Assembly (NCBI GenBank): GCA_001777915.1
Contig: MFFN01000006.1
Location: forward strand, 338,935 to 402,934
Length of the DNA stretch: 64,000 nt
Reading direction: 5' to 3'
Origin: Candidatus Edwardsbacteria bacterium RifOxyA12_full_54_48
GTDB taxonomy: Bacteria > Edwardsbacteria > AC1 > EtOH8
A model generated the notes under the pieces. The model had not been told where the DNA came from and made no database searches. It worked only from the letters and a program-made list of their open reading frames with translations. Position 1 is the first letter of the stretch. Every line of letters starts with the position of its first letter. Below are positions 2,768-46,929 of this stretch, piece by piece. The position numbers and the translations under genes were made by a program.

Positions 2768-2952
2768 AAACAGGTCCGGGTCCGGCACTAAGAACCGCCC
2801 GATCCGGCAATCGTAATACCGCGCCCCGAAGTAATCCAACCCCGACCAATCCCGCTCCTTCCGCTTACGCTACTATTCATCTTCCTCGAGTGCCACAGCT
2901 TCTTTATCTCTTTACAGCTACAGCGGAGGCACTGGCCGTGAACTTGCGGTTA
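2768..2952 (-). pseudogene. Rhs core remnant lacking its tip
   Basis: The sequence matches the end of the Rhs core of the full-length gene at 6799-11130, covering the KERDWSGLDYFGARYYD region through DPDLF. Homology stops abruptly at 2768, just before the variable tip would begin. It is also interrupted by a 73-bp repeat element at 2861-2933 placed between the codons for FT and KERD. No open frame remains. It is the most downstream relic of the Rhs tip array. Confidence 0.8.
2861..2933 (-). repeat. short dispersed element (family B) inserted in the Rhs core remnant
   Basis: The termini and middle match the element nested at 13403-13513, which lies in the opposite orientation. Shared blocks are agtgcctccgct, tggcactcgaggaag and tagcgtaagcgg. 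Here it splits the Rhs core sequence after the complement of CCAAGGAG. Confidence 0.65.
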
Positions 2953-3004
2953 TTTTAAAAACACCCGTTTTGATGAATGAACTGTTTACTAGTAAATCAA
3001 ATAA

Positions 3005-4240
3005 TTAAGGATGTACCTTAAAATATGAAATATACTTATTATCACTCTCTTTTTCATGTGATAACCAAAATACACATAGAACACCATCAACCGCAACTGT
3101 TATCCTTGGTCCTACAAAACCAAATGATTTGGGGTTATTATTAATTTGTTGGATATTTTTAGAACCATCCTCATTTATAACAATATATTCTTTTTTATCA
3201 GAAAACACAAAACAATGAATTTTCCCAGTCTCATCAATTACCGCATCTCCGAACAGTGTTCGTCTATTGAGGGAATCTGTGCGATCTACTGTGTAGTCGT
3301 TCTTATTTATTTTTATAAATTGTACCATATTATTTGATGGCAAATTGATCGAACTTTCCCAAAATGCAACGAAGCACTTGTCGTTACTTATAAGTTTTAA
3401 CGGAGAAGCCATTGGGGAATGTGTTTGTTTATATTTTCTAGCAAATATTTTTTTTCTGATTTTCCACCCTTTTTCGTTTAAACAAGCAAACCATACATTG
3501 TCTCCCTTATTGTAACATCCGTAATCATCAACCCAGATTGTATATAATCCGTCGAGATCTTGATTATATTTTATTCCATTGACACCTTGCACATGATATT
3601 TGCCGCGCTTTTGTATATTGATTCTCCTTTCACTACACAAATTTGACAATGGCAACAGATAATGTTTCAAATATCCTTGAAACAAATCGTGGCCAATATT
3701 AAATACAAACTGCCTATCGCTAATATCTGCATAGGATAAATACCCTTCGTCTTTTCCCGAAGGCACAATCATGAGATCAAAGTATTTATTCGCGGGATAA
3801 GACAATAATTCTTCAATAGAACCATTCCCTGTGCATAGGTTTTGCAATAACAACACAGCCATATTCTTGTCTTTGGCTACTTCCCAATACAAATCGAGAC
3901 AGTTATTTTTGCCCTGTAATATTTGTACTGGTTTTTTATACGCAAATATCCACGGTGATTTTATACCAGCAATTTGTTTTAAAGAATCATCGGTAAACTC
4001 AAATACATTTATAATATTTTTATTAAAATTAGTGACGCAAATATATATTTTTTCTTCCGTTTCACACAAATCATATGCCAGAATATCATTAGTCTGAAGC
4101 GAGATCGAGGTAACGGCGGATATTTTACTATTTTGGCCATGTGCATTATCTAATATAATGAGACTTGCGAAAGGAATAATAAACAAAGGAAGTGCCCTGA
4201 TTCCTTTCACAAATCCTCCCATGAAGTTTTTCTTACTCAA
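3005..4240 (-). CDS. secreted protein of unknown function, partner of Rhs tip 2
   Basis: I do not recognise this 411-residue protein. It has an N-terminal signal peptide (basic residues, then LPLFIIPFASLIIL, with probable cleavage after AHG near residue 35). The rest alternates short hydrophobic strands and polar turns, which could be a beta-propeller, but I cannot count blades. A TTG at 4240 is supported by AGGAG seven bases upstream and overlaps the stop of the displaced Rhs tip by eight bases, implying translational coupling. A GTG at 4210 after GGAGG is the alternative. Its place directly behind an orphan tip suggests an immunity or accessory role; this is inferred from position only. The gene is AT-rich compared with core genes. 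Confidence 0.7.
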   Translation of the reverse strand: MSKKNFMGGFVKGIRALPLFIIPFASLIILDNAHGQNSKISAVTSISLQTNDILAYDLCETEEKIYICVTNFNKNIINVFEFTDDSLKQIAGIKSPWIFAYKKPVQILQGKNNCLDLYWEVAKDKNMAVLLLQNLCTGNGSIEELLSYPANKYFDLMIVPSGKDEGYLSYADISDRQFVFNIGHDLFQGYLKHYLLPLSNLCSERRINIQKRGKYHVQGVNGIKYNQDLDGLYTIWVDDYGCYNKGDNVWFACLNEKGWKIRKKIFARKYKQTHSPMASPLKLISNDKCFVAFWESSINLPSNNMVQFIKINKNDYTVDRTDSLNRRTLFGDAVIDETGKIHCFVFSDKKEYIVINEDGSKNIQQINNNPKSFGFVGPRITVAVDGVLCVFWLSHEKESDNKYISYFKVHP

Positions 4241-4865
4241 GGGGATACTCCTTTTTTAAGTTTTCGCTATTTACATTAATAAACTTATTTATGTAATGAC
4301 TTGTAATATCTTTTATTGCCACATCAGCTGGATCATTCTCATCGTACGGCCGATCCGGTGTCTTTTTATCAAATATCGATTCAACGCTATGGCCAAATCG
4401 CAGGCCAACAAACAGCCCTCTGTGGGGATGTCTATAGCTATCTTGCAATGAATGCAATGATTCACCAAAATCTGCGACATTTCCTGTTTCAATCGATTTT
4501 TCTACCAGTTGAATCGCATCATTTGTAGATATAAAATGTTTTTTATAAGGTGATGAGAAATTATTGATTAGATTTTTCACAGCTGAATTTAAATTACCCT
4601 GAAAGGGATTAACACCATATATATCATCCACGCTTTGGTTTGCATAACTAAGATCTCTGGAAAAATTTAGTGAATTTATCTTACCATAACTTGCATCTAT
4701 TGCGAGATTAAAGGTTAATACATAGTGAATATCTATCCCACACTTTCCGGTAGGATCTTTGTACTTATAGGGGTTATTCAAACAATACGAATACCGGTTC
4801 AGCCTTTGCGGGTTGGATAAGATCCCTTCCTTGGGAACGCCGAACAGGTCCGGGTCAGGCACCAA
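4233..4865 (-). pseudogene. displaced Rhs C-terminal tip 2, S1/P1 or phospholipase C-like domain
   Basis: The first 40 residues repeat the Rhs core end (DPDLFGVPKEG, NPQRLNRYSYCLNNPY, then DPTGK). Homology to the core extends upstream to about 4893 and stops at YYDC, so this is a tip cut from its core. The unique part contains ESLHSLQDSYRHPHRG and FGHSVES, followed by a later acidic stretch. These His/Asp positions resemble the zinc-dependent S1/P1 nuclease or phospholipase C fold often found as Rhs tips. The only start is a TTG at 4865, and no Shine-Dalgarno is evident. It is probably silent unless recombined onto the intact core. Confidence 0.7.
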
Positions 4866-4924
4866 GAACCGCCCTATCCGGCAATCGTAATATAATGTTA
4901 ATTAAATTTATTTTAGCATATATG

Positions 4925-5563
4925 CTATGGATAAATATTAGCAGTTTTTGAAAAAGTATATTTATAAAATATTTGGTCATTAATTAAATAACCTATCGCA
5001 AATTCAGCTGTCGGATAATCTTTTATCTCAAAATCGATAATAAATACTGCATTTTTATCATAATGACCCTTGATGAATACTTCCGATATTTTTTCAATAA
5101 CAGCATTACTTTGCTCTTGTTTAGGCATGATATTTTGCAACTCAGATAAAATTATATTTTTCGTCTTTTCATTTTCTTTAATGCTCAACGTGCCATATAA
5201 AATAATAGTGTTGGGCTTAATGCTTAAATATGTTTTATATAATAATGTATCTTCTATTGGCCCATATGATATAGTGACATTATCTATACTATTTGTTTTA
5301 TATTCTTTTTTTATAAGATCTTTTTTCGTATCTATAAAAATAATAGCAACTTCCGTATCCACTTGGGTTTTATGATTTATTTTTTTTTCAATCTCCCCAA
5401 AGCTTGAATTTAATATCGAAGAAAATTCATATCCAAAAGGTTTTATGGTTACACTGGGTTTAATTATTACTTTCCCAACCACTTTATCCTTCATGCCGTT
5501 GTTGTAACAAGATATATTAAGCAAGGCACAGAAAGCACAAGCAACAATATAATAATATTGCAT
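4925..5563 (-). CDS. lipoprotein, candidate partner of Rhs tip 1
   Basis: This 212-residue protein has a lipobox (LNIS before C19) after a hydrophobic N-terminus, so it should be lipid-anchored. AGGTG lies five bases before the ATG. The body is rich in Lys, Ile and Asn with no motif I recognise. It starts only eight bases after the stop of the broken tip 1 reading frame and is AT-rich like the other tip-associated genes. By position it is a candidate immunity protein; a periplasm-facing lipoprotein would suit a cell-wall-directed toxin. This is inference from context. Confidence 0.65.
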   Translation of the reverse strand: MQYYYIVACAFCALLNISCYNNGMKDKVVGKVIIKPSVTIKPFGYEFSSILNSSFGEIEKKINHKTQVDTEVAIIFIDTKKDLIKKEYKTNSIDNVTISYGPIEDTLLYKTYLSIKPNTIILYGTLSIKENEKTKNIILSELQNIMPKQEQSNAVIEKISEVFIKGHYDKNAVFIIDFEIKDYPTAEFAIGYLINDQIFYKYTFSKTANIYP

Positions 5564-5571
5564 ATTGACAC

Positions 5572-6303
5572 CTATTTTAATAGATTTTTAAGGTCATTAA
5601 TTAATTCTCCTGGTCTAATTATCATAGCTGTACCTGATGGGTGCTCCTTGAAATTAGAGATGAAATCATTATAATATGACCAGGTTTGAGGATCGTCCTT
5701 GCTATAACCCTTTGAAACTGGAGATTGAACCGTAGGCACCGTCCAGCACCCAGCCGTCCCTGATACCAAATTCTCATCCGAAGCCGGATTCCCTGCATGC
5801 GAATGAATATGGTCGGCTACACTTTACCCTTGTTGTTGTGGATTTGGTGCTTCTGTCGGCAATGCTTCATTGCTATTGATTATTAATGCATCATGCTTAG
5901 GGAAATACGTTCCCTTATGTTTATCAAGCTTATAATTATAGATGCCACTTTTTACGGCTGCATTTGTGTTTTTTATATCAGCCCTTGTTTTCATTCGGTA
6001 TACTCCGTCAGGTAGCCAACCATTCCACACCAGTGCCAGCGAACCATACTGTGCACTGCGATTATATTCTACGGCTAATATAAATCTACCGTCTGGATCA
6101 ATGTACTTATATGGATTATTTACACAATAAATATATTTGTTCAGCAGTTGTGGATTCAATAAAATACCTTCTTTTGGTTCGCCTATAAGCGCTGGGTCCG
6201 GTGTTAAGAACCGCCCGATCCGGCAATCGTAATACCGCGCCCCGAAGTAATCCAGCCCCGACCAGTCCCGCTCCTTGGCGGCCTGCCTTGAGCAAGACCG
6301 CAT
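5572..6303 (-). pseudogene. displaced Rhs tip 1, DUF5675 or L,D-transpeptidase-like, broken by a TAA
   Basis: The 5' part repeats the Rhs core (KERDWSGLDYFGARYYD to NNPYKYIDPDG). The tip then reads on as GVYRMKTRADI and NSNEALPTEAPNPQQQG, followed by TAA at 5824-5826. Translation continues in the same frame as SVADHIHSHAGNPASDENL and SGTAGCWTVP to a stop at 5572. The His-Ala-Gly-Asn and later Gly-Cys resemble the His-Gly-Asn...Gly-Cys signature of DUF5675/YkuD-like folds, so the TAA removes the putative catalytic residues. The first nine codons (MRSCSRQAA) come from a short foreign insertion at 6279-6321. Confidence 0.75.
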
Positions 6304-6339
6304 CGTGGTCGTGTCGAACGGGTGAACTTGTTATTATTA

Positions 6340-6370
6340 TTGTGCCCTGCGGCTTAACCGCAGGGCACAA
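6340..6370. promoter_or_regulatory. perfect 13-bp hairpin between immunity gene and displaced tips
   Basis: The arms ttgtgccctgcgg and ccgcagggcacaa flank a 5-base loop with no mismatch. It lies 28 bases downstream of the candidate immunity gene on the minus strand. No T-run follows, so it may stabilise the Rhs/immunity mRNA end or act as a weak terminator rather than be a standard intrinsic terminator. Confidence 0.6.
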
Positions 6371-6398
6371 TAGGATACGCCGTTGCCTACTCTATTAT

Positions 6399-6788
6399 TT
6401 ACTTCCCTAATTCATCAACGTAACTTTTAAATATTGCCAAAGCATCCGGTTCTCTTTCTAATAATGCATCATGGTGCTCATTGTCTTTAATCAACTCCTT
6501 ATAACCCCAAGACGCTTTTACAAGAATATCCGGTTCTGTAAAAAAGTCCCTGTAATACCACCAATCGGGAATTTTATCATCTAAAATATCAAAGCACGCA
6601 GTAGAATACCAATTGGGAAGGTTATAGTCATCACAAACCAATAAGCATACTATACCGTCCGCAAGGTCCATGCCAAAAACATCGTATTCTTTACCAATGC
6701 TTAAGTCATATACAGCTTCATCTTCTTCCCCTTCTGCTCTAATACCCTTGATTTGATATCCGCGATTATATTTGCACTTTACACGCAT
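6399..6788 (-). CDS. candidate Rhs immunity protein
   Basis: This small acidic protein of 129 residues is cytoplasmic by sequence, with no signal peptide. The pattern of YDLSIGKEYDVFGMDL, then a hydrophobic strand and YNLPNWYSTACFDILDD, resembles a family I have seen beside polymorphic toxins (a GKEY-x-V-x-G strand followed by W-Y and F-x-I-x-D). I cannot give it a Pfam name. It starts 10 bases after the stop of the full-length Rhs gene, the usual place for the cognate immunity gene. The role is inferred from position, size and acidity. Confidence 0.7.
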   Translation of the reverse strand: MRVKCKYNRGYQIKGIRAEGEEDEAVYDLSIGKEYDVFGMDLADGIVCLLVCDDYNLPNWYSTACFDILDDKIPDWWYYRDFFTEPDILVKASWGYKELIKDNEHHDALLEREPDALAIFKSYVDELGK

Positions 6789-6798
6789 TTTTTAACTC

Positions 6799-9700
6799 CT
6801 ATTTGAATTTAAAATCAGCTACCGTGTTTGTCCTTGTGTTTCTTAACCAGTGAATTTCTACTCCATCAATATTTCTTGCCATTTTTACCCACCCTTCAGA
6901 GGCATGCCATATGGGGTCCTTCATTTGAATACGCAATTTAGCGCCTTCCAATGGATTAGCCATTACTTTATCCATTGCAGCTTGCTCTACGGCATTTTTC
7001 GCCACGTTGCGCCCAGTGCTTAACTGCGGTATTTGCTTTGGCGAACTCGCAACTTCATTCCCAATGATCCCTGCACCCTTGGCGGCAATGGATACATAGG
7101 CAACAACCTGTGCGGCCCGCAACACATCCTGTCCCACATAGCCCACGGTCTCCCACAGGGTGTTATTGCCGTTTATCGCATTGTAGGTCCCCACCCCAAA
7201 GCGCAGGAAATCATAACTGCCACGGATCACGCTTTCGGTGACATAGGCCGTGGCCGGGGTCATGGTGATCGAGGCGGTGGCCTTGGAGGCTTCGCTGAAT
7301 ATCGTCCGGCTGAGGAATCCGTCTATGGCATCGGCCCAGTCGTAGGGAGCTTCGCCGTTGGGATCTATGAAGCGGTATGGGTTATTCAGACAATACGAAT
7401 ACCGGTTCAGCCTCTGCGGGTTGGATAAGCTCCCTTCCTTGGGCGCACCGAACAGGTCCGGGTCCGGCACTAAGAACCGTCCGATCCGGCAATCGTAATA
7501 CCGCGCCCCGAAGTAATCCAGCCCCGACCAGTCCCGCTCCTTGGAAGTGAACTTGCGGTTGTTGCTGTAGGTCCCGGTATAATTATACTGCTTGCCGAAC
7601 GGGTAGTAATTGTCGGTGCGCACCACCGTGCCACTGGAATTGGTTATGGCCTTGGGCGTCCCCAGGTAATCGCAGTGATAGTAATAAGCGCTGGTCCCCT
7701 CGACCTTTACCGCCAGCTTGCCGTTAAGATAAATATACTTGCACTTAAGGGCATTGTACTCGTCGTACTCCGCCAGGGTATTGTTCCCGTTGCAAACGTA
7801 ATATCTGACATAGGGCGGAGTTTGTGGCACCAATGCCGTGACAATGCCGGGTGAATAGTTTCTGGGCAAACCGTTCTTCTGATACTGCTTGACCCTGACG
7901 CCGTCTCCATCATACCAGTAATTGGCCGGATAGCCGAAATTGCCGTCCAAAAAGTACTTGAGCCGGCCGGCCGGATCGTAGGTCATGGTCAACCAGGCCC
8001 ATCCGCCGTCGCTGACCCCGGTCACTTCCCCGGCCCCATTATAAGTATAACCCCAACTATCCGCCGTAGTCAATCGGTTTGTGGAGTAATTATAGGCATA
8101 GGTTGAGCTGTATTCCACGGTCTTGGCGGTGATGTTTCCGTGAATATCATAGCTGTATGAATTGCCTGCCCATGGTCCGTTGGCGGTTATCATCCGGTTG
8201 ACGTCGTCATAGGCATAGCTCTGATTGTAAGCGCTGTTGATGTTGTCGGTCAGCGTGGTCATATTCCCCACCCCGTCATAAAGGTAAGAATAGCCTATGG
8301 CACCCGACACGCTGATGCCGCTTATCCGGTAGCGGTTATTGTAGGAGATGGTGGCTGTTTTACCGTTGGCATAGCTGATGGTGGCCTCCCCGCTGGAGGG
8401 GTGATAGGTGACCCCGGTTATGTAGCCCGATATTGCCGTTGTCCGGTTTCCGTTATCATAGGTATAGCTGACGGAAATGTTATCGGGATAGATGATGGAG
8501 GTCAGATTGTCCCTGGTATCGTAGCCGAATGTCAAATTATAGGTGCGGCTTTCGATGTTCATGACTTTTGATGTCATCCGGTCGGCATTATCGTAAACAA
8601 AAGAATATGACACTACCAGGGAACTCAGACTGGTTCGGTTGTTGGCATTGTCATATCCGATGGCCACATCGGCCGAATCGCTGGGATAATCGATGCTGGT
8701 CAGGCGGTTGATATCATCATAATCGTAATTGATGGTGCGTTCGGCATCCGCTCTTTGAGTGACTAAACCGATGGCATTGTAGGCATAATTCACCGTTCCC
8801 GCTTCGGGGGTCGTTTCCGAGACCAGGAAATTAGTGGTGGTATTATAATTATACGTCCTGATCAGGCTGCCCTTGGTGATCTGAGTCACGCTGCCCAGGG
8901 TATTTCGGGTATAGCTGGTGGTCGCGATTGCATCAGCCACTTGCATCAGCCAGCGCTCGTCGGGGTCGCCAAAGGCCTGGTAGGTATAGGTTACGTTCTT
9001 GCTCCTCTCGTCATTGACCGTGGTGTTGGCGCCGGAAAAAGTATAGTTTATGGTCGTAGCATCGGGATTGGTTATTTTGTTTATCCTGCCCAGGTTGTCA
9101 TATTCAAAACTTCGTCCGATATTAGTGGATGTATGGGGGTAGGATTCGTAGGACTTCAATCCCATATTATTATAACTTATGGAGGTATTAACCCCCACCA
9201 CGTTGGTGGTGCCGGAGGATCTTCCCAACCCGTCGTAATTCTTTTGTGACCAGTAACTACCCCGGGCGCTCTTTTCCCAGGTGCAATTGCTGGCATAAGT
9301 GATGGCGGTGTAATCCCCTAAAGGTGGGGTGATTCTTGTTAAACGATTGGCATTGTCGTAAAGATATGACGTGGTCTTGCCACGGCCGTTGGTTTCCGTG
9401 GCAACCGTTCCCTCCCAATTTATCGTCCTGGTAATGGAATATATCGGATTTTGTATGGTCTGGGGCAAGCCATAGGCATAGCTGCTGTAGTCGATCCAAC
9501 TCCCGCTGGCATCGGTGACCCGGTCGATATCGCCGTTGGTGTAATAAGTAAAGGTGGTGGTTACGCCGTATTTATTTTCCGTCAACACGCTGCCCTGGGA
9601 ATTATAGGTATAACTGATGCCGAAGCTTTGCCCGTTTACGGTTACTGTTTTTGTGGCCGGTTTGTCAACCACATAATACGTGCCGCTGCTCCAGTAGGTT

Positions 9701-18148: not shown

Positions 18149-19354
18149 TTATCCGATAAAACTCTTGTGCAAAGCCAGCACCGCCTTCTCGATGTCCTGG
18201 CGGGACACGAAGCAGGTAAGCTTGGTCTGGCTGGTGGTCATGCCCTCGATGTGGATCTTCATTTTTCCCAGCTGGGCCAGCATCTTGGCCATCACCGCCG
18301 GCTCGCTGCCCACCCCGCTGCCGATCAGCGACACCGCGCCGATGTCGTCATTGAGGTACAGCCCGGCCCCCTTCATCTTCCTCAGATCCTTCTCCATGAT
18401 CTCTTTGGCCGCCTTGAGGTCCGTCTGGTTGACGATGAAATTGAGGTCGGTCTTATCCTTGTCTCCCCCGCCGTGGAAGTAGGACCGGATGTTTATCCCG
18501 GCCCCGGCCAGCTGGGTGACCACCTGGCTCAGCAGGACGCTCCTGCGGGGCACCGCCTTCATGGCCAGCATGGCCAAAAATTTATCGTGGGCAATGGCTT
18601 TGACGACCACCCTCTCCATCTTAGAACCTTTCCCTACTGTCGTTCCCGGTTTGTTATCAAAACTGCTGCGGCAGACCAGCGGCATTCTGTACTTGGCGGC
18701 CAGCTCCACCGCCCGCAAATGAAGAACCTGAGCCCCGCAGCTGGACAGCTCCAGCATCTCATCGAATGATATCCGTTTTATCGGCCGGGCGGTTTTGACC
18801 AGCCGGGGGTCGGCCGAAAAAATGCCGGAAAAGTCGCTGTAGATCTCGCAGGTGTCGGCCTCCAGGGCCACCGCCAGGGCCACCGCGGTGGTGTCCGAGC
18901 CGCCCCGCCCCAGGGTGGTGATCTCCCGCGCCAAACTGACCCCCTGGAACCCGGCCACGATCACTATGCTATCATTTTTAAGGGAATCTTTCAAGCGGTC
19001 CGGTTTTATTTCCAGGATCTTGGCCCGGGTGTGGCTGGAGTCGGTGATGATGCCCACCTGCGACCCAGTGAAGGATACCGCCTTTTCGTTCAGCGAATGG
19101 ATGGCCATAGCCAGCAGGGCCATGGATATCCGCTCGCCGGTGGTCAGCAGCATATCCATCTCGCGGCGGGGCGGGTCGGAGGATATCTGGCGGGCCAGGG
19201 CGGTGAGGTCGTCGGTGGTGTCGGCCATGGCCGAGACGACCACCACCACTTTGTTGCCCCGGCGCTTGGCCCGGACGATCCGGGCGGCCACCGCCTTGAT
19301 GCGCCGGACGTTGGAGACCGAGCTGCCTCCGTATTTTTGGACGATTATCGGCAT
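18149..19354 (-). CDS. lysC: aspartate kinase
   Basis: It phosphorylates aspartate at the head of the lysine/threonine/methionine pathway. It is 401 residues with the N-terminal kinase signature [15 protein letters not shown] (4-18), [13 protein letters not shown] near 145, and tandem ACT domains from about residue 265, where allosteric amino-acid feedback would act. It stands in a cluster with asd. Its first 55 coding bases are duplicated, with damage, at 21400-21454 on the far side of an accessory insert. Confidence 0.97.
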
Positions 19355-19420: not shown

Positions 19421-20536
19421 TTATTTTTTTCTATTATGGTAGTTGTCTTGTGCCTCTTTATCTAATTTATTTGCCAATGAAAGAACATCAATATTAGTTT
19501 CTTTAAAATTTGAACCCAGGAAAGCACCCCTAAAGAATCGCGAAATAGACATTTTCTGATTGTCAGTTTGAATCCATTCATTTCTATCTCTATACCAACA
19601 ATAACAAAGCAATAGATTGTAGGATTTTTCTTCAAGTATTTTACCATTATCTTCAATTGCCTTAACAGTATTGAGCATATCCGTTTGCTGTATCATATTG
19701 TATTCCCCATTTGAACGCGAATCATAATCATTCACTGTAAAACAGCCGTAAAAGACCTCGCGATATTTTTTTTGATTCTTTTTATAAAGAATAGCAGAGC
19801 AAAATGATCTTATAACTAATGAATTAGATTTTAGGCTATCTTGGAGAATTTTCTCATCTTCTCTGCTAATATTCGTGGATGAATATTTATTCAAGTTATT
19901 TAATGTAATGATATCGTTCTGTTCTGGATAATTAAATAACGTCGTATCAATTTGCCTTTCAAAAAATGCCTTCTCGGATTTTGTCAATTCCTTTTGCCAT
20001 TTCTTGCTATTCATCAAGGTCTTTAAGGCCGGTTTTAATTCTTCGTTTTTTATTAAGCTATAATTATTATTCGTCCACTGGCCATTGGCAATGCAGTATT
20101 CCAGATACTGCAGAGAGGACTCGGCCTTTCCTCCCAGCGAATAGCCCCGGGTTATCAAGAATGGTATGCCGTTAATGATTTCGATTGGTTCTGACGGCCA
20201 ATCCTTATAGCCGGTGTTGCCGATAAAACCGGCGGTGCCGATGAGCGGTCTTCTTAAAACCGTGTTTTTCTTTCCTTGGAATAACAGTCTGGTTAAAATT
20301 ATTATCTGGTCCTCATATTTATTGGTTCCGGCACATTCCTTAAGGATCTCTATCGCTTTGGTCCGGTCCAGAGACTGAATGTAGCCGGCCAATGAAAGGT
20401 ACGGGCTGCATTTGTAATTTTCGGAATTAATGGAAGAGCATTGGTCGATCAGGAATTGAAATCTATCACTTTCTTTTTGTCCGAATGATGTGCCGGTTAA
20501 GATCGTTACAAATAATAGCGTCAATAGCTTTTTCAT
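19421..20536 (-). CDS. secreted protein of unknown function
   Basis: This 371-residue protein has a signal peptide (MKKLLTLLFVTILTGTSFG, cleavage near 19). I recognise no domain. The N-terminal third is in GC-balanced DNA, whereas everything left of about 20080 is strongly AT-rich and Asn/Lys/Ile-rich, so the gene may be a chimera or under relaxed composition. It lies between lysC and the duplicated lysC 5' fragment, as part of accessory insert A, together with the phosphoesterase gene upstream. Confidence 0.65.
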   Translation of the reverse strand: MKKLLTLLFVTILTGTSFGQKESDRFQFLIDQCSSINSENYKCSPYLSLAGYIQSLDRTKAIEILKECAGTNKYEDQIIILTRLLFQGKKNTVLRRPLIGTAGFIGNTGYKDWPSEPIEIINGIPFLITRGYSLGGKAESSLQYLEYCIANGQWTNNNYSLIKNEELKPALKTLMNSKKWQKELTKSEKAFFERQIDTTLFNYPEQNDIITLNNLNKYSSTNISREDEKILQDSLKSNSLVIRSFCSAILYKKNQKKYREVFYGCFTVNDYDSRSNGEYNMIQQTDMLNTVKAIEDNGKILEEKSYNLLLCYCWYRDRNEWIQTDNQKMSISRFFRGAFLGSNFKETNIDVLSLANKLDKEAQDNYHNRKK

Positions 20537-20604: not shown

Positions 20605-21345
20605 TCATGACAAATAACCGGAACTCAAGGCCTTCTCCCAATCAGGCCTGTTTTGCTTTCCGGCCTGCCGGGCGGCTTTGTCCCAATCGTATTTTAATGC
20701 GATGAACTCCAGCGCCCACTTTCCTTCTTCAAGATCAATGACGGCATACCGGGCGTGGGGAGAGCCCGTTTCCACCATATGTCCATCGGCCCCTTCCTCG
20801 ACATAGGCCTGCAACCCCAGACTGCCCGGGTTGATTATGGTGGTCTCGTCGTCGAGCCTTACGCATCTTGGGGTATGCGAATGGCCGCAAAGCATCAGGG
20901 GGGTTCTTTGATCCCCGACCCTGGCCACTATCTCCTCCCGGCTTGACAAATGGATCCTGTTGTTCCCGATGGTCTCCAGCAGGTATTGTTTTTCATCCCC
21001 GGGGGAGCCGTGAAAGGCGGAGATTCCATCACCGATCCGGGTGAACGATTGTTGTTGTTCAAGCCATTTCAAATCATCGAAGGAAAGTCTTTCCCGGGCA
21101 AAGCGGTCGGATAGTCCCAGCTGTTCCGGGGTTTGGCTGACGATCCGCTGGTCGTGATCACCGTTCAGGTTCACCCAGCTGTTGCCCTTCAGCACCTCCA
21201 TGGTCTCCTTGGGCCATAACGGCCCGGAGACATTGTCCCCCAGGTTGACCACCTCGGTTATCTTCCTGCGTTTAATATCATCCAGAAAGGCTTCCAGGGC
21301 ACAAATATTGCCATGAATATCCGCCACAACGGCAAACCGGTTCAT
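20605..21345 (-). CDS. calcineurin-like metallophosphoesterase (YfcE/MJ0936-like)
   Basis: This 246-residue protein has the full metallophosphoesterase motif series: DIHGN (9-13), GDNVSG (about 37), NGDHD (about 61), HGSPGD (about 113), GHSHTPR (about 155) and the NPGSLG signature of the YfcE-like group. It probably hydrolyses a phosphodiester or a phosphorylated metabolite in the cytoplasm; the substrate is unknown. It is the upstream gene of insert A, with a normal ATG and AGGTGACG just before it. Confidence 0.88.
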   Translation of the reverse strand: MNRFAVVADIHGNICALEAFLDDIKRRKITEVVNLGDNVSGPLWPKETMEVLKGNSWVNLNGDHDQRIVSQTPEQLGLSDRFARERLSFDDLKWLEQQQSFTRIGDGISAFHGSPGDEKQYLLETIGNNRIHLSSREEIVARVGDQRTPLMLCGHSHTPRCVRLDDETTIINPGSLGLQAYVEEGADGHMVETGSPHARYAVIDLEEGKWALEFIALKYDWDKAARQAGKQNRPDWEKALSSGYLS

Positions 21346-21399: not shown

Positions 21400-21454
21400 C
21401 CGCCTTGATGCGCCGGACGTTGGAGAGCTAACCGCCTCCGTATTTTTGGACTAT
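21400..21454 (-). pseudogene. duplicated 5' fragment of lysC
   Basis: Fifty of 55 bases match the start of lysC at 19291-19345. Translation gives IVQKYGG, then a Gly and a TAG stop, then LSNVRRIKA, so it is non-functional. Orientation is the same as lysC. It marks the right border of insert A (19355-21399). Confidence 0.85.
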
Positions 21455-21476: not shown

Positions 21477-22043
21477 TCAGATCGTGCTGAATTGAATTTG
21501 GGCCGTGGCCATCCTTGAATAAAAATCCAGTTCCTTTCTTCGTTTTCCCGAATAATCGATCAAACGATCAAGTCCCGTCCAGAGGCAGAACCATCCGCCC
21601 GGCTCGAATAACACCAGGAGCAGCTGAAGGTAGTATCTTTCCGAATTTAAAAAAGTGATGTAACTGGCAAAGATCATCAAGGCAATGCCCGATAGGGTCA
21701 AAATGACGGCATTGCGGATTCCATTTTGCCTTTCTTTCTTAAATTGGTTGCATCTTTCCGTGAAATAAAGCTGCAGGCGGACGGCGATTATTTCTTCATC
21801 CTGTTCGTTTCTTGTTCCGGCCGGCAGCTGCAGCCGCAGGATCATTTCTTTCCCTTGCTGGTCGGCAACCACTTTCCTGACCTGGGCGATGAAATCGTCC
21901 GATACGGTGCGTTTAAGATACGATCTGGGATCGAAATCGGAAAACAATTCATCCAGGGAGTCCAGCCAAATGTTGACCACGTCCCGCTTGGAGGTGGTTT
22001 TATCCCGATCACTGTTTTCCGGGGATTTGTTCGGTTGATCCAT
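21477..22043 (-). CDS. small membrane protein of unknown function
   Basis: This 188-residue protein has a charged N-terminal half and two hydrophobic helices (NAVILTLSGIALMIFASYITFL near 112-133, and YLQLLLVLFEPGGWFCLW near 140-157), followed by a basic tail. No family is recognised. It lies between the duplicated lysC fragment and the duplicated atpK fragment. That makes it the segment that probably neighboured both core genes before the two inserts arose. Confidence 0.6.
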   Translation of the reverse strand: MDQPNKSPENSDRDKTTSKRDVVNIWLDSLDELFSDFDPRSYLKRTVSDDFIAQVRKVVADQQGKEMILRLQLPAGTRNEQDEEIIAVRLQLYFTERCNQFKKERQNGIRNAVILTLSGIALMIFASYITFLNSERYYLQLLLVLFEPGGWFCLWTGLDRLIDYSGKRRKELDFYSRMATAQIQFSTI

Positions 22044-22312
22044 GGTATAACCATCTTATCTGAAGTTATTAATGGGGTCAGTAAATAAGTAAGAATTTTA
22101 TTAGGAGTCCATGAAACCACTTGTAGTGAGTATGCCGAACTATGAACACTTAACTGTAAAAACCCTATCGATTCCTGCGTTCTACACCTGCGCTTTGCTT
22201 CGGCGCACAGGCTGGCTTCCTTATAGAATAAATCCATTTGTCTTCGGGCATTAGGCAATTAATTAAGTGCTCTGGTAAATAATGATGTTTTTTTATAGAA
22301 AACAGGCCTTAT

Positions 22313-22378
22313 CTATTTCAAAATAAACGTCATCACCAGTGCGAACACTGCATATGTCTCCGACATGGCTCCGGCCAC
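22313..22378 (-). pseudogene. duplicated 3' end of the V-ATPase K subunit gene
   Basis: The last 21 codons of atpK are present (AGAMSETYAVFALVMTFILK and TAG). Compared with 25078-25143 about ten codons differ, nine of them synonymously; the one amino-acid change is Pro to Ser. Upstream of it the gene is replaced by a triplet repeat. It is the left border of insert B (22379-25077). Confidence 0.88.
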
Positions 22379-22465
22379 CACCATCATCATCATCGCCATC
22401 GCCATCGTCGTCGTCGTCAACGTCATCGTCGTCGCCACCACCATCATCATGATGATGGTCACCTC
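22375..22465. repeat. imperfect CAT/CGT/CAC trinucleotide tract
   Basis: Runs of cat, cgt, cgc and cac triplets extend for about 90 bp directly from the atpK fragment. The minus-strand frame reads as Met/Thr/Val/Ala-rich low-complexity sequence in phase with the fragment. I see no gene in 22044-22312. Confidence 0.75.
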
Positions 22466-22481
22466 TATTTCTATTTTTAAC

Positions 22482-22618
22482 ATAGACACCATGTCTATCT
22501 CAATGTCTATGTTTATCATTAAAACCTATCGCGACACGATGTCGCGATTAATGTCTCGATGTAAATTGCCCCTATTCCCTCGTCATTTCAATATCATCTT
22601 CAACATGGACATTATGTC
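22482..22618. repeat. cluster of short GACA-nnn-TGTC palindromes
   Basis: Three hairpins share a GACA..ATGTC centre: 22482-22498 (atagaca, TGTCTAT arms), 22529-22547 (tcgcgaca, TGTCGCGA arms) and 22608-22618 (gacattatgtc). The last 11-mer also forms the core of the terminator at 12011-12045. They lie just downstream of the deaminase-fusion gene. Confidence 0.6.
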
Positions 22619-22629
22619 TATGTTAATGT

Positions 22630-24144
22630 CTATGTTACAGTGTACTTCAGTTTTGGCGACTTGGGTTTCTCTCCATTCGTTTTCACAAGTTTAAGCTTGA
22701 GCATTTTGCTTAGATGTCTGCTTGTCTGTCTTGAGGTGATTTTCATGTGTGTGGCATATTCTTTTGCTGACACTACTTCCTTACCTTTTATCCATTCATA
22801 GCCTTCAAATTCTTCACCGGTAAGTTTGCCCATTGCTTTACTGCCTGCCTTTTTCACTGCCTCAACCGTTCTTGGGAAAGTCACAACCACATTCAAACCA
22901 TCATACTCAATTATCGGCAATGGCAGATTATACTTAGCCCTGATGGATTTAAAAGTGTCCATCCCCAAACCAACTTCTTCCATGTAGTCCATTTCATTGA
23001 ATACAAAGGTAAGTTTCTTGTTGCGGCTGTATGAGGTGGCAGTAAAATTCTTCATTGCCTCAATGGTAATTGGCGGAAAAGGTTCGCCTGGGCTCTTAAC
23101 AACAATCCTATCCTCGTACACTTCAAGTTGAACTTTCGCACCATCCCTGGAATAGTCACGATGTGTAATGGCGTTTATAACTGCTTCCCTGATTACTGGA
23201 ATAGGAAAGGATGGAACATGCACGGCCTTGAATGTTGTACGATCAATACTTGCAGGCAAAACTTTTCTCAACCAGGCTTCCACCTGATCGGGTAAAAGCA
23301 CTAACGCGTCATCAAAAGTCTTTGTATCTGTTTTCCCATCAGCATAATTCACTTTGGCCTTAATGCCCGCCTGTGGAAATTTATTCCGCGGCGATTTGCC
23401 AAAGAGCAAAATGGCGTTGCCGGTTGGTAAATAAGTTTTTTTCTTTGAGTCATATTCCAGCAAGTCCATTTCCTTCAATTCTTGAATAAATGCGGCTGAC
23501 CTCGGTTTGTATTTTCTTTTTGATTCGTTCAGGAAATTTTGTAGTGCCTCATCCGACAAGCTGTCCATGTTTGTTGAAGCAGCCCGCTCATCCAAGTGGG
23601 CAGCAGGCTTATTCTTAGCCTGCTTCTCTTCCTCGTTCTTCATGTATGCCCATTTCATAAATTTCTTATTCACATCCTCTATCTCCTTATGAAACTGAGG
23701 AGAGAATTGGTGGACCTTTACCCCGTTTTCTACTAAGTAATCAATTCCCCCGTGGTCGACTTTTGGATTCTTGTCCTCAATGCCAAACCACAAGTCGGAA
23801 ATCCGGGCATTTACGATACGTTCTGCGCAACTTACTTTCGGAGCGTTGCGGGCACCGGGGGCGCATGGCTCAAGCGTAGCAAATAACCAACAACCGGATA
23901 CCTCACGGTGACGATTCTTTTTGTCAAGCACCGTATATTCCGCATGGTCCCCTTCTCGATATTCGCCTCGATATGCAGTCTCAACCGATCCGTCTGGAAA
24001 AACAAGCACCGCACCCACATACGGGCTCGGATCATTCTTCTTGCGTTCAGGTATGGATTTTTTCATTACCTCCACTGCAAGCTTCATGTATTCCTTTGGG
24101 TCCTTTCGGCCGCTAACTGCTTTTGACTTTGCCATATTTGTCAA
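22630..24144 (-). CDS. RibD-like deaminase fused to COG2865-type GHKL ATPase and winged helix
   Basis: The 504-residue protein has three parts. Residues 15-150 form a RibD-type zinc deaminase: PYVGAVLV, the HAE ligand/catalytic site in GDHAEYTVLD, LEPC and a second Cys in APKVSC, then IEDKNPKVDHGG. Residues about 200-430 match the C-terminal part of Schlafen/RecG-related COG2865 proteins: ILLFGKSPRNKFP, VIREAVINAITHRDYS and EVYEDRIVVKSPGEPFP (GHKL-type ATP site). The tail is a winged helix (ITSRQTSRHLSKMLKL). The AlbA_2 domain normally at the N-terminus of COG2865 proteins is absent, and the deaminase occupies its place. The substrate may be a nucleotide or nucleic-acid base; a defence or regulatory role is inference. 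The gene lies in insert B. Confidence 0.85.
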   Translation of the reverse strand: MTNMAKSKAVSGRKDPKEYMKLAVEVMKKSIPERKKNDPSPYVGAVLVFPDGSVETAYRGEYREGDHAEYTVLDKKNRHREVSGCWLFATLEPCAPGARNAPKVSCAERIVNARISDLWFGIEDKNPKVDHGGIDYLVENGVKVHQFSPQFHKEIEDVNKKFMKWAYMKNEEEKQAKNKPAAHLDERAASTNMDSLSDEALQNFLNESKRKYKPRSAAFIQELKEMDLLEYDSKKKTYLPTGNAILLFGKSPRNKFPQAGIKAKVNYADGKTDTKTFDDALVLLPDQVEAWLRKVLPASIDRTTFKAVHVPSFPIPVIREAVINAITHRDYSRDGAKVQLEVYEDRIVVKSPGEPFPPITIEAMKNFTATSYSRNKKLTFVFNEMDYMEEVGLGMDTFKSIRAKYNLPLPIIEYDGLNVVVTFPRTVEAVKKAGSKAMGKLTGEEFEGYEWIKGKEVVSAKEYATHMKITSRQTSRHLSKMLKLKLVKTNGEKPKSPKLKYTVT

Positions 24145-24225
24145 TCTCGTCGTTTATGAGCTTTATTGTAGCCAGAATATCGGACATTCAAATTAATCCT
24201 TCATTTGAATGAATATTAAAATACG

Positions 24226-25017
24226 TTATGTGCCGTTTTTATTATCAATTAACTCTTTTGCTAATTTTCTATAAACCTCATTCTCTGCGTTTTTAGAAAT
24301 ACCAGTGTATATCTTGATTAACTTTTTATCAGGCTCGTCAAATACTGAAATATATTGGGAGAAATCTTTCTTTTGATCAACTTTTCTTTGCTTATACATT
24401 TCAAGAAAACCATAGGGATTATTTTGAATTGCTTTAACAATAAAATCCGGCATTGCTTCCCCTAATTCAGCATTTGTCATTATATTACTGTTCAATTTGA
24501 TCAATGCTGAAATAAAACAGGTATCCTTTTTACTTTCATTTGACATTATTTGAAACGTCTTCCAAACCAAACCGTAATTTTCATCATCATTTGTAAGCAG
24601 CTGTGAAAAAAGTGCTTCACCGGTAAAATAATCATAGTCGGAATAAAGTTTTACCAATATATCAGCTTGTGATTTACTTAATGACTTTTTCGTTGTTATC
24701 TCAAGCAGTAATTGTTTTAACTTATTATTAACCTCAGTATATCTATCAATGGATTCTTGGGAAGTTAATATTTCCAGACGTTTAATTTGTTCATCAAGTT
24801 CTTTGCTGTCTTTTGCCGGGAACCAGTCATAATAAAATTGACAAATTGAGGCACTGTCATTTGGAAATACTTTTACGGCTTTCTCTATGATATTCTTGAA
24901 TCTCAAAGAAGCGTTGTTTGATGAATTTATATTTTTCCCCGCCTCATTACTGCTCGTTTTATTACTGCAGGAATACATCAAAGCTGTAATCAACATTAAA
25001 TATACTATTCTTTTCAT
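24226..25017 (-). CDS. lipoprotein of unknown function
   Basis: This 263-residue protein has a short hydrophobic leader and a lipobox ending in C17 (ALMYSC), then a Ser/Asn linker. The body is helical and charged with no motif I recognise. It is AT-rich, ends 81 bases before the deaminase-fusion start on the same strand, and begins 60 bases after atpK. It belongs to insert B and may be co-transcribed with the fusion gene. Confidence 0.65.
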   Translation of the reverse strand: MKRIVYLMLITALMYSCSNKTSSNEAGKNINSSNNASLRFKNIIEKAVKVFPNDSASICQFYYDWFPAKDSKELDEQIKRLEILTSQESIDRYTEVNNKLKQLLLEITTKKSLSKSQADILVKLYSDYDYFTGEALFSQLLTNDDENYGLVWKTFQIMSNESKKDTCFISALIKLNSNIMTNAELGEAMPDFIVKAIQNNPYGFLEMYKQRKVDQKKDFSQYISVFDEPDKKLIKIYTGISKNAENEVYRKLAKELIDNKNGT

Positions 25018-25077
25018 TTCACATTCCCCTTTTATAAGGCGTGCAATTCATCAATTTCCAATAAAAATACGAAACAT

Positions 25078-25581
25078 CTACTTTAGTATAAACGTCATTA
25101 CCAAAGCGAACACTGCGTAGGTCTCCGGCATGGCCCCGGCCACCAGCGCGTTCCCCAGCGTATTCTTCCCCTCCTGTATGCTCTTTATCCCCGCGGCGCA
25201 GACGATCCCCTGGTACCAGGCGCTGATCATCAATATCACGCTGGCGATGGCCGCCTTGCCGGCCACGGTGTAGGGGTCGGTGGCGAAGCCGCCCAAGTTG
25301 GTGAAGAATATCACCATCCCGTAGATCCCCTGGGTGGAGGGCATCAGGGCCACCGCGATGTTCTTGTAAAAATTCTCCTCGCCCCCGGCCAGCAGGGCCT
25401 GGAAGGATATCACCAGGCCGATGGCCGAGCCGCTCAGGGCCAGCGACAGACTTAAACCCAGGGCCATCTTGGCCAACAGGGGCGCCCAGACGAAGGCGGC
25501 CGGAGCCTCCTGACCTAGGGCCGGTGCGGCGGCCATCAGCGACAGCAGGAACAGGGCCGGGATGGTAAGTTTCTTTTTCAT
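25078..25581 (-). CDS. atpK: V/A-type ATPase subunit K (membrane ring)
   Basis: The 167-residue rotor-ring proteolipid has four membrane helices in two hairpins, preceded by an extra signal-like N-terminal segment. MPSTQGIYG (first hairpin), WYQGIVCAAGI (third helix) and MPETYAVFAL (fourth helix) carry Thr-Gln, Gln and Glu. These match the sodium-binding positions described for Enterococcus hirae NtpK (T64, Q65, Q110, E139). Sodium coupling is therefore likely but not proven. It is the last gene of the ATPase operon, two bases after subunit I. Its 3' end is duplicated at 22313-22378. Confidence 0.95.
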   Translation of the reverse strand: MKKKLTIPALFLLSLMAAAPALGQEAPAAFVWAPLLAKMALGLSLSLALSGSAIGLVISFQALLAGGEENFYKNIAVALMPSTQGIYGMVIFFTNLGGFATDPYTVAGKAAIASVILMISAWYQGIVCAAGIKSIQEGKNTLGNALVAGAMPETYAVFALVMTFILK

Positions 25582-32644: not shown

Positions 32645-33007
32645 TTATTGTTTGCCGCGCTTGGCAGTTACCACTGACTTCGCAATTATTTTAACCAACT
32701 CGGTTGCTTCTTTGAATAAGTCGTCTGTTTGAACGTCGGGTACTAATTGAGCCTTGCGAATAAGCCTTAGCCAATACAACGATTCTTTTAATTCTTTCAG
32801 AACGATCTGCATCTTATGGATGAAATCATTCTTGCTTTCTGCCCCGCAGCATTCCTCATAATTTGCCCCGGCCGAGGTCGTAGCTCTCATCAGCTGTTTC
32901 GAAATGTGAAATCCGGCTGCGGTCTTTGCCAAGGTTCCCATTAATTTGATTATGGCGGCGGCAAAATTCAACAGGCGTTCTGATATTTCATTCTTCTGCA
33001 GGCTCAT
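32645..33007 (-). CDS. four-helix-bundle protein (23S rRNA IVS-type)
   Basis: This 120-residue protein belongs to the small four-helix family (TIGR02436) first seen in 23S rRNA intervening sequences. Signature segments are KQLMRATTSAGANYEECCGAES and LKELKESLYWLRLI. Members are widely scattered and often mobile; their function is unknown. Here it is inserted between the ATPase operon and dapL, with AT-rich palindromic sequence after it (32599-32640) and heptad repeats before it (33007-33063), consistent with a mobile cassette. Confidence 0.85.
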   Translation of the reverse strand: MSLQKNEISERLLNFAAAIIKLMGTLAKTAAGFHISKQLMRATTSAGANYEECCGAESKNDFIHKMQIVLKELKESLYWLRLIRKAQLVPDVQTDDLFKEATELVKIIAKSVVTAKRGKQ

Positions 33008-46877: not shown

Positions 46878-46913
46878 CCTCACCCTTCCCTCTCCTAAAG
46901 CATTAGGAGAGGG
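46878..46913. repeat. 36-bp palindromic intergenic repeat, copy 2
   Basis: It is identical to 1235-1270 and lies between etfB and etfA. It could act as an mRNA hairpin in the operon. Unlike copy 1 it is too far from the next start to serve as its Shine-Dalgarno. Confidence 0.85.
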
Positions 46914-46929
46914 GCAGGGGAGAGGTCTG

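Follow-up and report, generated by a model that had tools for sequence, protein, structure and literature searches.

For the T6SS effector-immunity arrays of Vibrio cholerae, a combination of one-sided homology and illegitimate joining has been proposed (Kirchberger 2017, PMC5361080): a new module replaces the 3' part of a gene, the old part shifts downstream and the resulting arrays are co-directional (PMC5361080). Rhs loci, as they are presented in that source (via PMC5361080), carry strings of orphaned gene ends that stem from successive 3' replacement, and the minimal mobile elements of Neisseria, as outlined in the work on them (Saunders and Snyder 2002; PMC3082526), are differing whole-gene cassettes between two conserved genes, without mobility genes. 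Laboratory precedents exist for homology-facilitated illegitimate recombination, with one homologous end and one illegitimate end bearing 3-10 bp of microhomology, and for the single crossover of end-eroded circles; the partial gene-end duplications described in E. coli span 109-950 bp (PMC3240628; PMC2884548). Type II restriction systems and other defence genes pass between genomes with no obvious mobility genes, and the route by which they insert is poorly documented. SCC-type cassettes sit at the 3' end of rlmH, and the gene end is restored.

The locus described here, the interval between the V-ATPase gene atpK and lysC, resembles the T6SS arrays in its 3' replacements and co-directional order, but their displaced gene is the variable effector itself; at this locus a housekeeping gene provides the anchor with its end, and restriction or defence genes make up most of the cargo. 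Its orphaned ends recall Rhs loci, in which the toxin tips are the selected cargo, whereas the atpK end encodes a nearly unchanged protein and the cargo lies after the stop codon. Differing whole-gene cassettes between conserved genes are shared with the minimal mobile elements but, set against those elements as they are outlined, the cassettes here are layered with gene-end scars, and one both-ended unit lies elsewhere in the genome. The laboratory events, with which the locus would share its one homologous and one illegitimate end, are mostly deletions or longer duplications, whereas the scars here are 20-110 nt long and recur at the same gene ends. As with SCC cassettes, the inserts lie behind a conserved gene with a restored end, but they have no ccr-like recombinase, the lysC joints are not fixed and several unrelated gene ends have been used. 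Quite probably, we consider, the interval is a hot spot where one-sided homologous insertions have accumulated in series, a process that would be a variant of the known one-sided insertion.

The window analysed is a 64,000-nt stretch on contig C6 of the genome under study (G000), that of an uncultured bacterium in the Candidatus Edwardsbacteria family. Four species of the genus were compared (G000, G001, G002 and G003, the locus of the last being cut by a contig end), together with a member of another genus (G004), and 34 other atpK loci (546 kb, nearly all deltaproteobacterial) served as the comparison set for atpK ends outside the genus. Gene-end scars in G000 were counted on contig C6 and parts of contig C2. 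The V-ATPase operon ends with atpK, lysC follows about 6 kb further on by ORF order, and in all species read the genes of the interval are co-directional with both. The features of the interval in the window are as follows.

25078..25581, minus strand: atpK (V-type ATP synthase subunit K, proteolipid), last gene of the V-ATPase operon (Pfam ATP-synt_C; ORF order)
25078..25143, minus strand: probable incoming (foreign) atpK 3' end, now the gene's end (86% to congeners against 95-97% just upstream; groups with another genus)
22379..25077, minus strand: inserted segment of 2.7 kb, 39% G+C against about 61% in the operon, its genes co-directional with atpK
24226..25017, minus strand: 263-aa lipoprotein-like ORF without family match
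22630..24144, minus strand: 504-aa fusion of a cytidine/RibD-like deaminase domain and a HATPase_c_4 (RecG-C-terminal-like ATPase) region (Pfam PF00383, PF13749)
22379..22629, minus strand: 251-nt structured tract adjoining the putative illegitimate joint
22313..22378, minus strand: probable displaced resident atpK 3' end, 21 codons and stop
22280..22312, minus strand: native atpK 3' flank (TAG-ATAAGGCCTGTTTTCTA...), common to G000 and G001
21477..22043, minus strand: 188-aa membrane-protein-like gene, a neighbour kept in G000, G001 and G002
21400..21454, minus strand: displaced lysC 5' end (lysC nt about 10-64; 91% to 19291-19345)
20605..21345, minus strand: metallophosphoesterase gene, lying between lysC and its displaced head
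19421..20536, minus strand: 371-aa gene of low G+C (36%), with a 376-aa homologue in the G001 array
18149..19354, minus strand: lysC (aspartate kinase), conserved gene at which the interval ends (ORF and homologous loci)

The initial annotation had noticed that the last 21 codons and stop of atpK are present twice in direct orientation, and this was confirmed: the 66 nt of the gene's end recur at 22313-22378, within a direct repeat of 70 nt (22311-22380 against 25076-25145, 84% identical). A degenerate pattern for the atpK end occurs in the window at exactly these two places, and in none of 100 shuffles. The repeat extends from GTGGCCGG, 66-68 nt ahead of the stop codon, to the stop codon itself. 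The annotation's estimate of about ten differing codons, nine of them synonymous, is exact (10 of 22, counting the 21 codons and the stop), and its reading that the copies diverged as coding sequence before the arrangement formed agrees with the low probability of so synonymous a pattern under random substitution (P about 2e-5). An assembly error is unlikely, given that the copies are not the same in sequence or surroundings and were found in separate assemblies.

Several observations indicate which copy is the older one. The body of the G000 atpK (nt 301-438) is 95-97% identical to its congeners and the last 66 nt only 86%, with 7 private differences in the 66 nt of the end against 2 in 138 nt of the body (Fisher p = 0.006). 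A tree built from the 66-nt ends places the orphan with the G001 and G002 genes (support 81) and the present end of the G000 gene with that of G004 (support 72), both values being moderate because so short a sequence was compared. The orphan differs at 6 sites from the G001 and G002 gene ends and at 11 from the end of its own gene, and the bases 3' of its stop codon (ATAAGGCCTGTTTTCTA) are common with those 3' of the decayed displaced end in G001, the 188-aa gene following in both. From the drop in identity, the tree and the shared flank we conclude with moderate confidence that the orphan is the former resident end and that the gene now carries a foreign one, the foreign patch having its 5' limit between about -76 and -37. 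The annotation's proposal, in which arriving DNA carried a gene end of its own that took the place of the resident end, is thus supported. Nothing points to a discrete, integrase-carried element, and no integrase was found in the inserts of the atpK-lysC interval or of contig C2. The end of an essential ATPase gene would appear to be exchangeable for a foreign copy as the price of cargo. At the other border of the interval, the idea of a foreign lysC end was rejected, there being no excess of differences at the lysC 5' end.

The segment between the two atpK ends holds the deaminase fusion and the lipoprotein that had been annotated there, and also a 251-nt tract that had gone unmentioned. The tract contains three GACAYNATGTC...AATGTCT units and a run of GAY/GTG triplets, folds far better than its shuffles (z = -6.3) and has no Rfam match, with only short triplet matches elsewhere in the family. 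The 263-aa ORF has a lipoprotein-like start. The 504-aa fusion has a partial NCBIfam ribD match below the cut-off and weak PADLOC matches, and is possibly a defence or regulatory protein. No relatives of the fusion were found in viral contigs, and in plasmids only its ATPase domain had matches, all distant and short of 60% identity and 80% coverage. As neither source gave a close relative, it is only the company of other genes that makes a defence role plausible. A viral or plasmid carrier of the insert was rejected on these results and because the viral contigs contain no match to the atpK end.

Different cargo lies directly behind atpK in all four species of the genus. In G000 it is the deaminase-ATPase; in G001 atpK is followed by a cytosine methyltransferase, an unassigned ORF, Vsr, a lysC head fused to a 38-nt atpK tail and the 188-aa gene; in G002 by an HNH nuclease and then more cassettes; and in G003 by an unassigned ORF, an N6/N4 methyltransferase, an atpK tail and another gene up to the contig end. 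Restriction-modification cargo is therefore found behind atpK in two of the four species, an HNH nuclease in one and the deaminase-ATPase in one, and displaced atpK tails are kept in three (G000, G003 and, decayed, G001). The whole-gene cassettes flanked by atpK and lysC differ among G000, G001 and G002, G003 differing behind atpK. The cargo starts 16 to about 90 nt after the atpK stop codon and runs in the same direction, and so could plausibly profit from transcripts that read through from the ATPase operon. Scars are present in the loci of all four members of the genus, whereas a scan with fixed criteria found no gene-end scars in the 546 kb around the 34 other atpK loci. Nor did these loci contain an orphan of the same protein end, the one further copy, in L075, looking like a tandem atpK gene, and scars as a general property of atpK were rejected.

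The lysC gene has been affected in a corresponding way at its 5' end. This end is repeated between cassettes, often with about 20 nt of leader, the repeats matching 18 to about 111 nt of lysC; displaced heads number one in G000, at least three in G001 and three in G002. A dispersed leader repeat as the source of homology was dismissed, since the sequence preceding the lysC heads (AATCATGTTAATCCTGTCAAA) is absent elsewhere in the window and in contig C6. In G001 a lysC head is joined directly to an atpK tail (...GGCGGCGGCCGC|TCTGGTGATG...), and the two overlap by 3 nt, CGC. This is the only joint with both parents known, and a junction of this kind would be expected from a circle closed by end joining or from illegitimate joining. 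An older joint, between a lysC head and the start of an acyltransferase gene, is common to G001 and G002; in G001 it has been reduced to a stub, behind which come another lysC head and then the atpK tail. With the stub of the shared joint lying under newer ones, the layers can be read in order. Such scars, short pieces of essential genes that show the foreign end, the older layer and the position of the joint, make one-sided insertion testable in nature.

That the interval holds different cassettes in every species is also what would be expected of a minimal mobile element, its cassettes exchanged by double homologous recombination in the conserved flanks and its scars inherited from the donors. 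The joints shared by G001 and G002 do show that some layers were exchanged or inherited, but double exchange replaces cargo and by itself makes neither gene-end scars nor arrays, so that another step would be needed; as an account of the locus we regard it as very improbable.

A third atpK tail of G000 lies on contig C2, far from atpK and lysC. At L004:7326-10583 a PDC-S06-type AAA_13 gene and a DUF2971 gene stand between this tail and a lysC head, the order of the unit being atpK tail, PDC-S06/DUF2971 defence pair, lysC head; upstream of the tail are an EcoRI-type methylase and a type II restriction gene. The unit is part of an island that follows an Omp85/BamA-like gene. A second copy of this gene's 52-nt tail, the old one, lies 14.1 kb away at the far end of the 14.1-kb island, before the native terminator, and is joined in frame to an ORF reaching up to the joint. 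In G001 and G003 the native terminator lies directly behind the Omp85-like gene, and the site is therefore empty in these species. As the lysC 5' end and the Omp85-like gene are affected as well as atpK, the process is recurrent and not the work of one element.

We envisage that incoming DNA from a relative would carry a conserved gene end (atpK 3' or lysC 5') joined to cargo and would undergo homologous recombination with the resident gene at that end; because the exchange would fall at the gene end, the essential gene would stay whole and take over the foreign end. At its opposite side the cargo would be sealed within the resident gene end by illegitimate joining at short homologies. This could happen directly, through homology-facilitated illegitimate recombination, or through a single crossover after the incoming DNA had first been circularised by end joining. 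Each event would push the old gene end outward and leave a scar of 20-110 nt. One homologous and one illegitimate side would explain the foreign gene ends, the displaced resident ends, the varied scar lengths and the absence of integrases. Entry may have been by DNA uptake, which DprA and ComEC, both widespread genes and both present in all ten family genomes, might permit. Some points count against one-sided insertion: random joining does not predict that three atpK scars start within 2 nt of each other; the foreign atpK patch is short, whereas homologous exchange often copies longer tracts; and the tree of the 66-nt ends gives moderate support.

The varied lengths of the lysC scars would also suit an origin in which the operon or gene was duplicated, or integrated by a long-homology single crossover, and the redundant copy was later trimmed to a short end. 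Partial gene duplications by single-crossover integration are documented (PMC3240628), and the lysC-head|atpK-tail junction of G001 fits a circle. However, three atpK scars are equal in length, and no complete or half-length second copy was seen in the four species; the two complete tandem ATPase operons that would have marked the fragment as a deletion relic were likewise seen in none of them. The copies, moreover, diverged as coding sequence before the event, so that the source was foreign in any case. We think duplication followed by deletion unlikely.

The three atpK scars that start alike (66-68 nt before the stop; window 25120-25147, L004 and L018) do so at the edge of a 12-nt palindrome, TGGCCGGGGCCA, at -67 to -56. 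The crossover position agrees in these three and differs in the fourth atpK scar, that of G001, and in the lysC heads. This common start, the exact restoration of the gene end to its stop codon and the presence of two large serine recombinases in G000 could point to site-specific integration, with the atpK 3' end (TGGCCGGGGCCA) as the attachment site of a recombinase encoded elsewhere and a cassette attP that restores the gene end, in the manner of SCC elements at rlmH. Against this, the inserts contain no integrase; the insert carriers G001 and G003 are without large serine recombinases; the three tyrosine recombinases of G000 are all on contig C5 and none within the loci, where an integron cassette array would need its IntI integrase; the fourth atpK scar, the one fused to a lysC head, begins at -38; the lysC heads end at varied positions; and an Omp85-like gene of different sequence has been used too. 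Site-specific integration is thus less likely than one-sided insertion and on the whole doubtful, kept alive by the common start of the three scars. That shared start, with the both-ended unit at the foreign C2 site, also leaves room for an unrecognised, integrase-free mobilisation system in Edwardsbacteria that would move defence cassettes bounded by atpK 3' and lysC 5' ends as discrete units, with a preferred cut near TGGCCGGGGCCA, a reading to which we give little weight beside serial one-sided insertion. A Chi-like role for the octamer GCTGGTGG, which occurs at the atpK joint in the genus, was dropped because the octamer is not over-represented (105 seen against 104 expected in 403 kb).

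Some further repeats and genes were seen in passing. The lysC gene bears GGTGGCCG, similar to the atpK palindrome, about 63-70 nt downstream of the gene's start. Two ORFs close to a large serine recombinase have a 37-nt 5' end in common at 95% (L114:11793-11829 and 19708-19744). The window also contains a gene for a 23S rRNA-intervening-sequence protein of the four-helix-bundle family (32645-33007), between the V-ATPase operon and an aminotransferase gene, and an exact 37-nt repeat, apparently intergenic, around CCTCTCCTAATGCTTTAGGAGAGGGAAGGGTGAGG (1235-1271 and 46878-46914). At 2769-7542 lies an Rhs/YD-repeat gene with several displaced C-terminal tips in repeats of 50-190 nt (74-97% identical), a usual Rhs displacement array.
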